Assembly: GCF_016863395.1 (NCBI RefSeq)
Contig: NZ_BOOU01000076.1
Location: 1-64,000 of the forward strand
DNA from: Sphaerisporangium rufum
GTDB lineage: Bacteria; Actinomycetota; Actinomycetes; Streptosporangiales; Streptosporangiaceae
Length of the DNA stretch: 64,000 nucleotides
Direction: 5' to 3'
Shown: piece after piece, positions 28,103 to 32,036 of the stretch
How positions within the stretch are numbered: the first letter of the stretch is position 1
Layout: the number at the start of each line of letters is the position of its first letter
The notes under the pieces: generated by a model
What the model saw: the letters and a program-made list of their open reading frames with translations, nothing else
Database searches by the model: none
Told to the model about the DNA's origin: nothing
Position numbers and translations under genes: made by a program

Positions 28103-28663
28103 CTACGGGGCCGTCCCCTGGCGCCAGGCCTCGGCGAGCAGGGCGTAGGTGTAGCCGTCCACCCAACCTAGTTCGGCGTGCCAGGAGTCGCCCACGCCGT
28201 GCTGCTCACGACGCATGCCGACCTTCTCCAGGAGCCGCACCGAGGGCAGGTTGTCCGCGAAGCAGCCCGCGGTGATCCTGCGAACGCCCAGCCGGTCGAA
28301 CGCGTATGCCACCATCGCGGTGACGGCCTCGGTCGCATACCCGTGGCCGCCGTACGCCGGGTCGAAGATGTAGCCGAGTTCGGCCTCCGTCCGCGGCGGC
28401 ATTCCCGGTTGGCCCATGCCATCGGCCACGTCGAGCGAGACGGTCCCGATCACCATGCCGTCGAGGACGACCGCCACGCTGTGATCGTCGGGGTTTGCCG
28501 CCGCGCGCCGCCACACCGCGCGCAACGACGCGGCGTCGACCTCCGTGCGCAGGAGCCAGCGGGTGACCTCCGGCAGGTTGCGGTACTGCATGATCCGGTC
28601 GATGTCCTCGTCGCGCACCGGCCGAAGCTCTAGGCGTTCGGTGCGCAGATTCGTGCTCGCCAT
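28103..28663 (-). CDS. GNAT-family N-acetyltransferase (RimJ/RimL-like)
   Basis: 186-aa acetyltransferase. N-terminal LRTERLELRPVRDEDIDRIM is the RimJ/RimL-type opening; ELGYIFDPAYGGHGYATEAVTAM contains the acetyl-CoA motif A (GGHGYA), and GCFADNLPSVRLLEKVGMRRE the motif-B region. The C-terminus has YALLAEAW, usual for this subgroup. TACCGT (28676-28671) lies 7 nt before the ATG at 28663, giving a leaderless start. Substrate unknown; single gene. Confidence 0.87.
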   Translation of the reverse strand: MASTNLRTERLELRPVRDEDIDRIMQYRNLPEVTRWLLRTEVDAASLRAVWRRAAANPDDHSVAVVLDGMVIGTVSLDVADGMGQPGMPPRTEAELGYIFDPAYGGHGYATEAVTAMVAYAFDRLGVRRITAGCFADNLPSVRLLEKVGMRREQHGVGDSWHAELGWVDGYTYALLAEAWRQGTAP

Positions 28664-28670
28664 GGGTGGG

Positions 28671-28676
28671 ACGGTA
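28671..28676 (-). promoter_or_regulatory. -10 hexamer TACCGT (leaderless)
   Basis: On the minus strand TACCGT ends 7 nt before the ATG of the acetyltransferase; no Shine-Dalgarno is seen. The remaining 28677-28872 gap shows no gene. Confidence 0.4.
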
Positions 28677-28872
28677 ACGGTCAGGGTCCGGCGGCACACC
28701 TGGTTATCCCACCGCCCGGTCGATGACATCACAGGCACGCGACGGCCGTTCGCCGGGACCGACGATGCGCCGAGTCGGTGACCGGTTCGCCGCTGAATGC
28801 CGCCGGCGCGGTCACCTGATCGTCGTCAGCGGCGGGTGAGTGATGGTGGGCGGTCTTGGTGTAGCGGGTGCT

Positions 28873-31599
28873 TCAGTCGAGGTTGTTCCGTTGGCGAACC
28901 AGATTCGCGATCGCCAGGATCTTCGGGCGGCCGGTCGCCTTGAACGCGAGGCCGTGCCGGAAGATCTCGGGAATCCAGTATTCGTCCTCCTCCCGGAAGA
29001 CGACTCCGTTCGCGGCGAGGACTTCGAGCTGGGCGGTGGTCAGTTCTACCGCCTCCGGGCTGAAGGGGATTCTCTTCCGTTCGGCCGGCAGGCTCTGCAG
29101 ATGCTGGAGGATGGCGCCTACCTGAGGACTCTCCTCGGTAATGGCGCGGATCTTGTCCAGGCTGCACTGGACGAGGGCCTTCCTCATGGCGGCGGGTGTC
29201 AGCAGGCGGGTCGAAGAGCGCACGTCCTCGGCGGAATGAGCCGCCGACTCCTTGAGGAACGTCACGATGTCACGCGCCTGGATCTGGTCGTTGAAGTCGG
29301 ACAGCGCGGCCAGGAACCAGCCGTCGGAACGCGCCTCCCTCGACCTTGGGGAGCCCATTTTCTCGCCCCACAACGGATGCAGCATCGTGCTCAGGGACTG
29401 GTTCCTGGCCGCCGCCACCTGGTCGGCCGTGAGTTCCGGCAATGCTCCAGAGCGCTGCGTCACCCAAAGGGCCAAGCGCAGCGCCTCGAAGTGATTCCAC
29501 TTGAGTTCATAGTCGCTGTACCGGGCGAAGAACTGCTGGTGGTTCTGCCTGATGGCCGACTGCACGAGGTCACGCCGGACAAAAATGATCAAACCGAGGG
29601 GTCGTCCGCGCAGGCTGCGCAGCCAGTCGATGCAGTCGATCAGCAGGACCCGGAGCGCCTGACGCTGGATCTCATTGCCGAGAAGATCTTGAAGGAGATC
29701 CTCCAGCCCGTCGAAGAGGAAGATCCGGGTGTTCTCGGCGGCGAACTCGATCAACCTGTGCTCGACATCGGCAGGAGTGGCGTCGATGCCCACGACTCGG
29801 GCCATGCAGGTCAGCCACACCCGTCTCCATTCGACGTTGGTGAGCTCGGAACGCAGGGCGCCGTCCACCAGGTCGTGCAGTGCCAGTTGCGTGGCGACTC
29901 CGGGGCCCCCATCGGTGGTGGCGCCCTGCTGGATCTCGTCGATCCGCTCGCGTGCGGAGTCACTGAGATGCTTGGACACCAGCACCGGTGCGAGGGGCGC
30001 GTCAAGGGTCACGCCGGACACGCCGACATCGTCCGCGTAGCGGCGCCAGGTATGGCGGAAGCACATTTGCAGTTGGGTGAACGTCTTTCCGGAGCCCTTG
30101 GCTCCGGTGACCACACACAGCGGTGGTTCGGTCCGATGCGACGTGAGGATGTTGCGCAGCGATTCGGTCGGCAGGAAGTCGGCGTCTTCCGCCGTCTCGG
30201 CGTACACCAGCCGCTGGGCGAATTCGGTCAGGTGGTTGCGCCTGATCGCCAGTTCGTCAGGTTGCACGGCGATGGTGATCGCACCGCCGTCCGACGGATG
30301 ATCCTGGCGAACCTGTTCCGGGGCCGGCAGAAGTTCGTCTGCGAGCGAAGCCAGCGTCTCGGAGAGGTGCTGACGACGCACCAGATCGGTGACCGCCTCC
30401 CAGGATTCGGGGAGGGCGAGAAGGCGGTCCTGGAAGACGCTGAAGATCGGTTCCAGGGTCACGTCCCGGTCGGTGATCAGATCATCCCTTCCGGGCGAGA
30501 GCCGTTCGAGGGTGCCGGAGATCGCGTCCCGGAGGCGGGTCGCGGCCGACATCGCCAGCTCCCGGTGTCCGTCCTCACGGAACTGGGTGATGACCGCGAC
30601 GCTCGCCGGGTCGTCGGCACCCGACGGAGCGCGGCGGCCGAGTTGCTGGATGGTGCGGACGGTGCCGTGCAACGACTGGCTGCTGACCGTGGTGACGAAG
30701 ATCCGCTGGATCCTGGGGTCGAGCAGGATGGGAGCGGCGAGTTCGCTGCTCCCCGCGCGGAGATCGATGAGAACCGTCCGTGCGCCGAGCCGGTCGGCGA
30801 GTTCGGCAAGAGACTCCGTCAGGTAGTAGATCGACCGGTCGGGCGTCAGCAGGTCGGTGGGTTCCAGCCGCGGAGGGGCGATGTCATACAACGACCGTCG
30901 GGTCGGCATGACGATCACATTTCCCATCATCTGGTTCGGAAGGTAGGCGGCTCCGAGTCGCACCGCGTCATCCGGGCGCCCGTTCTCGGAGGAGTGCAGG
31001 AGTGCGAGGAAATCCTCGTAGCCGAAATCGACCCGGCGTCCATGTGCACCGAACATCCAGGTGATTCCCGGCGCTTCTAAATCGGCGTCCACCAGCAGTA
31101 CCCGGCCGCCACGTTGGGCGAGCGCCTCGGCGAGGGCGACTCCGTGCAGAGTGCGGCCGACCCCTCCTTTGAACGAGTGCAGGGCGGCTACCCGCACATC
31201 ACCGGCAAATGGCGCACCGGGCCGTGGCAGCGGCTCGCTGAGGGAGGCCACGATGCGCCGCTCTCGCCAGCGAGGCTCTCGCCGTGGTTTCTCCACATCC
31301 CGCCGATGTACCGCGATCGGCAGCAACCGCGTCGAAGGGCGCCCGGGAACGTCGTCCAGCCGCAGCAGCGGCTGCTCATCCTGGAACAACGAGCCGACAC
31401 CGAACACCTCGCTCAGCCAGGACAGGGCACTCACCTGGGACGCGTCCGGAGCGACGGTCACTTCCAGGCCGTCCCAGAAGGCATCGCACTCCAGCACCCA
31501 CTCCGGCCAGCGGCCGGCCGCCGCCAACGCCGCGAGGTGGGCATCGACGTCGACCCAGGTGAAGATGTGCCCCGGAGTTCCGAGCTCCTCATCTGGCAT
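28873..31599 (-). CDS. Dual P-loop ATPase: KGGVGR-type ParA-like plus STAND-like module
   Basis: 908-aa protein, not a characterised family. Residues 1-125: mixed N-terminal region (GHIFTWVDVDAHLAAL). Residues about 135-420: SIMIBI/ParA-MinD-like ATPase with altered Walker A FKGGVGRT (143-150, Arg in place of the usual final Lys), LVDADLEAPGIT (169-180) and LIDLRAG (277-283). Residues about 450-720: second P-loop with Walker A TGAKGSGKT (498-506), Walker B RIFLFDGLEDLL (625-636) and IIFVRRDL. The C-terminus (LTTAQLEVLAANGVVFREED) resembles a winged helix. It starts 2 bp after the HEPN-like gene, so the two form one operon. Third-position GC bias looks weaker than in its neighbours. A signalling or defence role is inference. 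Confidence 0.78.
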   Translation of the reverse strand: MPDEELGTPGHIFTWVDVDAHLAALAAAGRWPEWVLECDAFWDGLEVTVAPDASQVSALSWLSEVFGVGSLFQDEQPLLRLDDVPGRPSTRLLPIAVHRRDVEKPRREPRWRERRIVASLSEPLPRPGAPFAGDVRVAALHSFKGGVGRTLHGVALAEALAQRGGRVLLVDADLEAPGITWMFGAHGRRVDFGYEDFLALLHSSENGRPDDAVRLGAAYLPNQMMGNVIVMPTRRSLYDIAPPRLEPTDLLTPDRSIYYLTESLAELADRLGARTVLIDLRAGSSELAAPILLDPRIQRIFVTTVSSQSLHGTVRTIQQLGRRAPSGADDPASVAVITQFREDGHRELAMSAATRLRDAISGTLERLSPGRDDLITDRDVTLEPIFSVFQDRLLALPESWEAVTDLVRRQHLSETLASLADELLPAPEQVRQDHPSDGGAITIAVQPDELAIRRNHLTEFAQRLVYAETAEDADFLPTESLRNILTSHRTEPPLCVVTGAKGSGKTFTQLQMCFRHTWRRYADDVGVSGVTLDAPLAPVLVSKHLSDSARERIDEIQQGATTDGGPGVATQLALHDLVDGALRSELTNVEWRRVWLTCMARVVGIDATPADVEHRLIEFAAENTRIFLFDGLEDLLQDLLGNEIQRQALRVLLIDCIDWLRSLRGRPLGLIIFVRRDLVQSAIRQNHQQFFARYSDYELKWNHFEALRLALWVTQRSGALPELTADQVAAARNQSLSTMLHPLWGEKMGSPRSREARSDGWFLAALSDFNDQIQARDIVTFLKESAAHSAEDVRSSTRLLTPAAMRKALVQCSLDKIRAITEESPQVGAILQHLQSLPAERKRIPFSPEAVELTTAQLEVLAANGVVFREEDEYWIPEIFRHGLAFKATGRPKILAIANLVRQRNNLD

Positions 31600-31601
31600 G
31601 A

Positions 31602-32036
31602 TCACACACGCAATTCTTGCCGACACCAGTCCAGGAGGTCGTGCAACACGACAAGTGCCTGCTCCTCGTGCTCTTTTCTCAGCGAATGTCCGTATCGCCA
31701 TGCTTGGTGGAGGTCGCGGAACTCTACGCGTTGCCGGCGATCCTGCTGACTCGTACATGAGTGGATCTGGTCGCAGAGACTGCGGGGCAGCCGTAACTCC
31801 TTGGCCAGCAGTTTCAGATCGTGATGAGCACGGAGATGCTCCGGCAGCTGCGAGGTGGACCGCAACCCGTGCCGCTCGAGCAGGGAGGACTTGAGCCCGC
31901 ATTCAGCCCCGTAGAAGAGCAACAGCGCGGCCGAGGCGCCCGAGTCGAGCACGGCGGCCGCCGCCTGGTGTCGGGAAAGGCTGGCACGAAGTTGATTGCG
32001 CCCGACGTCTATGGTCACGCGGAGTGACGTTACCAT
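31602..32036 (-). CDS. HEPN-like small helical protein
   Basis: 144-aa all-helical protein resembling HEPN-domain proteins. A central helix SAALLLFYGAECGLKSSLLE matches the HEPN pattern of hydrophobic face plus conserved Glu/Cys; HLRAHHDLKLLAKEL and FRDLHQAWRYGHSLR follow. The catalytic HEPN RNase motif Rx4-6H is not clear: R103-x6-H110 is the only good spacing, so it may bind or sense rather than cut RNA. Its stop is 2 bp before the ATPase start, and its ATG lies 9 bp after the chelatase stop. Rarer codons and lower GC than the cys genes suggest acquisition. It could also belong to another helical-bundle family. Confidence 0.6.
   Translation of the reverse strand: MVTSLRVTIDVGRNQLRASLSRHQAAAAVLDSGASAALLLFYGAECGLKSSLLERHGLRSTSQLPEHLRAHHDLKLLAKELRLPRSLCDQIHSCTSQQDRRQRVEFRDLHQAWRYGHSLRKEHEEQALVVLHDLLDWCRQELRV

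Follow-up and report, generated by a model that had tools for sequence, protein, structure and literature searches.

Two adjoining genes of Sphaerisporangium rufum, one encoding an apparently HEPN-like small protein and the other a large protein with two P-loops, raise the question of which system they belong to. They lie in a stretch of 64,000 nucleotides of contig NZ_BOOU01000076.1 (the window, whose numbering is used for all positions), where the gene for a protein of 144 amino acids (aa) is followed on the minus strand, 2 bases on, by the gene for a protein of 908 aa. A preliminary description had proposed that they form one operon with weaker codon bias than its flanks and represent an undescribed conflict or defence system. 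Both open reading frames (ORFs) and their spacing were confirmed. An open frame of up to 1009 aa is available to the larger gene; the start that gives 908 aa agrees with the gene spacing and with N-termini alignable from P9 and T14-V18, which are invariant in 19 sequences, but the starts of the relatives were chosen to match that of the window, so that the alignment is no proof of M1. The weaker codon bias was also borne out, since GC content was 0.62 and 0.66 and GC at third codon positions (GC3) 0.73 and 0.82 in the pair, as compared to 0.69-0.80 and 0.88-0.97, respectively, in nine neighbouring genes. On sequence comparison the pair is most likely a divergent, two-gene, actinobacterial branch of the defence candidate PDC-M28, whose components A, B and C it would carry as a small A protein and a fused B-C protein.

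The 908-aa protein matched the PADLOC profiles PDC-M28B (PDLC04559/60) over residues 136-236 (57.8 bits, E 2.4e-16) and PDC-M28C (PDLC04561) over residues 668-838 (33.9 bits, E 3.9e-9). The KGGVGR domain also occurs in other proteins, so the M28B match alone is weak. When the window family was compared with the two PADLOC families by hhalign, it aligned to M28B over residues 139-325 (E 2.1e-16) and to M28C over residues 474-894 (382 columns, E 9.2e-11), and on these alignments the 908-aa protein is read as a B-C fusion. NCBIfam model NF047398 (AAA_KGGVGR, 'KGGVGR-motif variant AAA ATPase') matched residues 136-320 with 160 bits against a cut-off of 90; it is a domain model only, from whose name neither a partner nor a function can be read. 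With PDC-M28 listed in PADLOC and the KGGVGR domain named in NCBIfam, the idea of an undescribed system was rejected. The pair shares with PDC-M28 the A-B-C order on one strand (in the window and in all 18 relative loci described below), homologous B and C, and an apparent homology of A at the level of profiles, but its A protein is too divergent for the PADLOC profile (PDLC04557/58).

Both fused and separate forms were seen on plasmids. A tblastn search with the ATPase gave 18 plasmid records, through which three-gene operons were found in Enterobacter (two), Tistrella, Sphaerotilus and Burkholderia, as well as a fused two-gene form in Nostoc. Profile scans of ten proteins from these loci gave PDC-M28A for the five small proteins (L077, L078, L080, L081 and L082), M28B for the middle protein of L077, the one scanned, and M28C for the last proteins of L077, L080 and L081. 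The Nostoc plasmid locus (L078) is intermediate, with a small protein matching M28A (39 bits) beside an 890-aa partner that scored 140 bits with M28B and 93 bits with M28C. A further search with one M28C protein gave 20 plasmid records, of which 11 carried A-B-C, including Calothrix and Streptomyces, 6 did not, and three (H66, H67 and H77) were left out; tblastn confirmed A and B in all seven further A-B-C loci (L085, L091, L092, L093, L096, L098 and L100). The three-gene arrangement referred to here is that of the operons examined. Whereas B and C are separate in these operons, they are fused in the window, in its 18 relatives (17 placed in the window's family, the other an actinobacterial metagenome-assembled genome, L058) and in one other case, that of Nostoc.

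Several other plasmid matches were set aside. L084, L086 and L089 carry MinD genes in other settings, and L079, L088 and L090 a different small gene with ParA; in the latter (L079:4531-6908, L088:3440-5860 and L090:4762-7130; Rhizobium and Massilia plasmids) a small protein annotated as MqsA-family is immediately followed by a ParA/AAA-family protein of ~620 aa that is related to the KGGVGR domain region. L083 and L087 were unannotated and were left out of the analysis. M28C-like genes for which the surrounding sequence examined gave neither A nor B were seen in L094, L095, L097, L099, L101, L102 and L103 (Streptomyces, Kitasatospora and Aeromicrobium plasmids), L103 having come from a separate search outside the 20 M28C records; in L095 and L099 a replication-relaxation gene and one for an ATP/GTP-binding protein lie close to it.

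The gene pair recurs in other genomes, as had been suggested for checking. A search with the small protein in 297 genomes of the order gave 18 positives including that of the window, all of the window's family; the 18 relative loci are the other 17 and L058, which was found through its ATPase. Both genes occurred on one strand and in identical order in 18/18 loci, spaced by +2 bases in 10, by -1 or -4 in 6 and by +17 or +18 in 2, with identities to the window of 44-77% for the ATPase and 40-65% for the small protein. Named hosts were Streptosporangium, Planomonospora, Thermocatellispora, Nonomuraea and Microbispora. The small gene of L073 has no ATG, GTG or TTG start at the expected place and was retained in the counts. 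Neighbouring ORFs (~1 to 12 kb per side, chosen by GC3 and not by a gene finder) were compared all-against-all, and the only families present in more than 4 of the 19 loci were the pair itself and ORFs overlapping it (with one stray member elsewhere), the largest cluster outside the pair occurring in 4/19. Co-occurrence of the two genes exceeds chance. Distances among the small and among the large proteins were correlated (r 0.92 in 19 loci; 0.77 in the 16 closest, a value reached by 0 of 2000 permutations), which is expected under co-inheritance and is no proof of contact between the proteins. In the phylum-wide ATPase search, where 220 of 296 genomes matched, the matches listed were, besides the window, of the short MinD/ParA type only, the longest covering 135-428, and they were excluded from all counts. 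The small window protein had no match among plasmids, and E. coli genomes had no close match to the window or Enterobacter DNA. The ATPase had one weak match among phages, to Microcystis phage Mic1 (21% over 479-701); the Mic1 gene concerned (L104:3016-3636) is labelled ParA and matches the second NTPase half (21%) rather than the ParA half.

Nine genomes of the same genus in the order-level listing had no match to the small protein, and two congeners (L107 and L110) show an empty site in which only 60 and 127 bases, respectively, separate a sirohydrochlorin-chelatase-like ORF from the SPFH ORF that follows it directly. These two genes are held apart in the window by the pair together with a GNAT gene, and the small gene begins 9 bases past the upstream stop. 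The other eight congener loci had no clean empty site, one having SPFH further away and the rest no SPFH match within 1.5 kb. Base composition favours gain of the pair rather than its loss. The pair is real, patchily distributed and co-inherited. The GNAT gene (28103-28738), which lies between the pair and SPFH and is missing from both clean empty sites, has a GC3 of 0.89, the second lowest among the nine neighbours measured, and may have come with the pair.

The proposal that the small protein is HEPN-like was supported by profile comparison and by a structural model. No HEPN family of Pfam, which presumably contains a MAE_18760 model, was found in any of the 19 family members up to E 10. However, hhalign comparison with 6 M28A proteins gave a probability of 89% (E 2.4e-6) over residues 4-95, and M28A proteins are themselves HEPN-like: the Nostoc member scored 22.1 bits against the Pfam HEPN cut-off of 22.0, and those of L096 and L100 are annotated as HEPN. 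An AlphaFold model from 19 sequences (predicted local distance difference test 93.1, predicted template-modelling score 0.87) predicted four main helices (13-30, 34-55, 106-114 and 121-142), the second and third being joined by an insert that contains short helices.

Which residues might act in this protein was examined by conservation. The motif R103-x6-H110 put forward earlier was rejected, R being present at 103 in only 5/19 members although H110 is present in 19/19. Residues invariant in 19/19 include E45, C46, K49, H72, C94, H110 and WRYG 113-116. The Rx4-6H motif is absent from these sequences, as R114 is the sole invariant R and no invariant H follows it. In a wider set of 17 window-type and M28A sequences, E45, C46 and K49 were kept in 17/17 and R114 and Y115 in 16/17. 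In AbiV/AF0298-type HEPN proteins, as far as the available part of the source goes, R is kept, the motif H is typically lost and another conserved H lies in an insert between helices 2 and 3; HEPN domains in general have a conserved acidic helix-2 residue close to the site (Anantharaman et al. 2013, PMC3710099). E45, H72 and R114 fit such an alternative HEPN-T site at the level of the residue pattern only. The likeness is not matched by similarity to AbiV as such, since the window protein had no significant match and the M28A protein of L081 scored 16.3 bits against Pfam HEPN_AbiV (cut-off 27.1).

The same source, in the part available, also proposes the HEPN protein MAE_18760 and an adjoining ParA/Soj gene as a toxin-antitoxin dyad (PMC3710099). 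Applied here, A would be an RNase toxin and the ATPase its antitoxin, acting through nucleotide-dependent conformation or modification. The layout, a small HEPN gene beside a ParA/MinD-like ATPase gene, is the same, and the strict pairing of the two genes agrees with it. MAE_18760, however, is tabulated there with Rx4-6H, which the window family lacks while adding a second NTPase half. Further, an antitoxin of 908 aa with two NTPases would be a large one, and in the M28 form it is divided between two genes. We regard a toxin-antitoxin role as fairly unlikely.

Both nucleotide-binding motifs reported for the ATPase were found. KGGVGR (K144-R149) is identical in 19/19 sequences and has Arg in place of the usual P-loop lysine; we take K144 to be the signature lysine of ParA/MinD proteins, which is kept, and R149 to stand at the P-loop lysine position. 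GAKGSGKT (499-506) forms the second Walker A and FxxDGLEDLL (627-636) the Walker B. In one relative (L075:922-3654), which adjoins PglW, both second Walker motifs are degenerate (GAVGSGMV; HGLDDL), the pair being otherwise open. The suggested STAND identity of the second NTPase was not upheld, as no STAND or NACHT profile reached its cut-off: this half stayed under every listed Pfam cut-off (nSTAND_NTPase5, 15.9 bits vs 34), and its M28C relatives scored 14.6-16.4 bits against NACHT (cut-off 26.7), the Nostoc relative matching an ORC-CDC6-like model at cut-off. NCBIfam NF047389 (Sll1717 family) gave 52 bits with the second half, below its cut-off of 75. A PDB sequence search with the ATPase gave a sensible match for the MinD part only. 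The C-terminal end is possibly winged-helix-like. Coordinates of all features are given in Table 1.

Table 1. Features of the gene pair in the window; residue numbers refer to the respective protein
Feature	Position	Strand	Basis or conservation
Small HEPN-like protein, 144 aa, probable counterpart of PDC-M28A	31602..32036	-	ORF, relatives, profile comparison, model
E45, acidic residue of helix 2	31902..31904	-	19/19 window family, 17/17 wider set
H72, candidate alternative catalytic His	31821..31823	-	19/19; between modelled helices 34-55 and 106-114
H110	31707..31709	-	19/19 window family, H in 6/17 wider set
R114 of WRYG, end of modelled helix 106-114, candidate HEPN-motif R	31695..31697	-	19/19, 16/17 wider set
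908-aa double P-loop protein, PDC-M28B-like and PDC-M28C-like halves apparently fused	28873..31599	-	NCBIfam, PADLOC, hhalign
N-terminal region, residues 1-135, no family match	31195..31599	-	27 invariant positions in 1-130
KGGVGR MinD/ParA-like domain, residues 136-325	30625..31194	-	NF047398; hhalign to M28B
Deviant Walker A KGGVGR, residues 144-149	31153..31170	-	Invariant 19/19
Second NTPase and C-terminal region, residues 474-908, probable counterpart of PDC-M28C	28876..30180	-	hhalign; PADLOC PDLC04561
Second Walker A GAKGSGKT, residues 499-506	30082..30105	-	Motif alignment
Second Walker B region, residues 625-636 (FxxDGLEDLL at 627-636)	29692..29727	-	Motif alignment
C-terminal end (PEIFR..L), possible winged helix	28915..29082	-	Alignment to M28C end

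The pair was found beside defence genes in some genomes. Its immediate neighbours in the window are sulphur-assimilation, GNAT and SPFH genes. In 3/18 loci (L068, L074 and L075) the pair is directly adjoined by a full-length PglW (1500-1535 bits), within ~200 bp, in three genera and in three arrangements. On plasmids, the A-B-C operons of Sphaerotilus, Thiodictyon and Streptomyces NBC_01334 (L081, L091 and L092) have pgl genes around them, and four others adjoin an integrase. PglW was present in 10 of the 18 pair-positive genomes (window included; L058 lies outside this search) as compared with 22 among 104-109 genomes of the family for which no pair is known (Fisher p 0.003-0.007, kinship ignored); the 22 are in the pair-tested set by handle, and some of the 104-109 are outside it. 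Of 120 family genomes drawn, 30 had PglW; at least 11 of the 120 are pair-positive, and 8 of these have PglW. The module might accordingly be an accessory of BREX-2/Pgl, recruited to Pgl islands and working with PglW/PglX, with A as a non-catalytic adaptor or nucleic-acid binder. Against this, the pair itself has no Pgl protein, 8/18 pair-positive genomes, that of the window among them, have no PglW at E 1e-100, and 8 of the 11 A-B-C operons have no annotated pgl gene in the stretch examined. Moreover, PADLOC candidates were found by 'guilt-by-embedding' and are mostly unvalidated, according to the available part of PMC12988326, because of which the BREX-2 link of M28 is possibly not independent. 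The PglW neighbourhood of the fused form was observed in the present analysis. An accessory role is, in our estimate, doubtful.

Other defence-related genes were seen near some of these loci. The contig of L074 carries NsnC, NsnB and PglX (L118:10704-18096) with the pair and PglW as a defence island, NsnB and NsnC being, we assume, components of the Menshen system. In a Streptosporangium genome, ~3 kb separate the pair from an SNF2-type helicase resembling DrmD (282 bits; L060:2186-5227), and a TIR-domain gene lies just downstream of A-B-C on a conjugative plasmid of Enterobacter asburiae (L077:7719-8522).

We favour, with some reserve, the reading of the pair as a B-C-fused branch of PDC-M28 in which an NTPase sensor or switch controls a HEPN effector. 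The C half would sense invading DNA or an infection signal and change its nucleotide state. The B half, keeping K144 and having Arg at the P-loop lysine, may serve as a nucleotide-held dimer switch and not as a fast ATPase; related MinD/ParA-like domains of other conflict systems are predicted to be inactive, in the available part of that work (Kaur et al. 2020, PMC7159879). The switch would then release or position A, a putative dimeric RNase that may use E45, H72 and R114 as an alternative site and shut down the infected cell. It was likewise the preliminary description that had the ATPase sense and the HEPN protein execute, a division of roles that we too infer. A bolder version, in which a MinD-like Arg-for-Lys switch and an ORC/STAND-like sensor fire an E/H/R-site HEPN RNase that doubles as a PglW-wired plug-in back-up effector for BREX-2/Pgl, appears distinctly unlikely. 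That the pair is no defence system at all, and is instead a mobile regulatory or replicon-maintenance module with a ParA-like ATPase, would agree with its MinD/ParA-type domain and with the absence of defence genes immediately beside it in the window. The Arg at the usual P-loop lysine in 19/19 sequences and the placement in defence islands (L081, L091, L092 and the PglW-adjoining loci) argue to the contrary, although no search was made for a ParB-type partner, and we consider such a role very improbable.

Several observations weigh against the favoured reading of a PDC-M28 branch with a HEPN effector. The small protein itself had no Pfam, NCBIfam, PADLOC or PDB match, and a 17-sequence profile found no HEPN in PDB, with one non-significant match. 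Only 2/19 members reached PDC-M28A by hidden Markov model (best E 0.016, no other PADLOC family being reached), the family profile scored only 12.6% against the single Nostoc protein, and the profile alignment to M28A stops at residue 95, leaving the R114 region outside. The H72 column has H in 7/17 of the wider set, the rest having an H elsewhere in the stretch, possibly by chance. In 6 of the 20 plasmid records an M28C-like protein had neither A nor B within 4 kb. To these are added the absence of PglW from the window genome, the ordinary neighbours of the pair in the window, and the finding that kinases and metabolic enzymes were the commonest Pfam families (top 25 of 127) of 126 flanking ORFs within 5 kb in the 18 loci. 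Finally, no paper on PDC-M28 or 'KGGVGR' and no experimental test of PDC-M28 were located, in a literature search that omits preprints and most subscription papers, so that this absence is weak; the available parts of the DefensePredictor paper (PMC13092281) have no mention of ParA or MinD, and those of a BREX paper (PMC12839542) lack ParA, SIMIBI, Soj, Mrp and PDC as whole words.

New in this study are the residue-level hypothesis for A and the repeated PglW neighbourhood of the fused form. PDC-M28 has apparently been a catalogue entry without a mechanism, and testable roles can now be proposed for A, B and C. The natural fusion cuts the system to two easily cloned genes. If it is true that A is an RNase without Rx4-6H, the alternative HEPN site proposed in 2013 would become directly testable.

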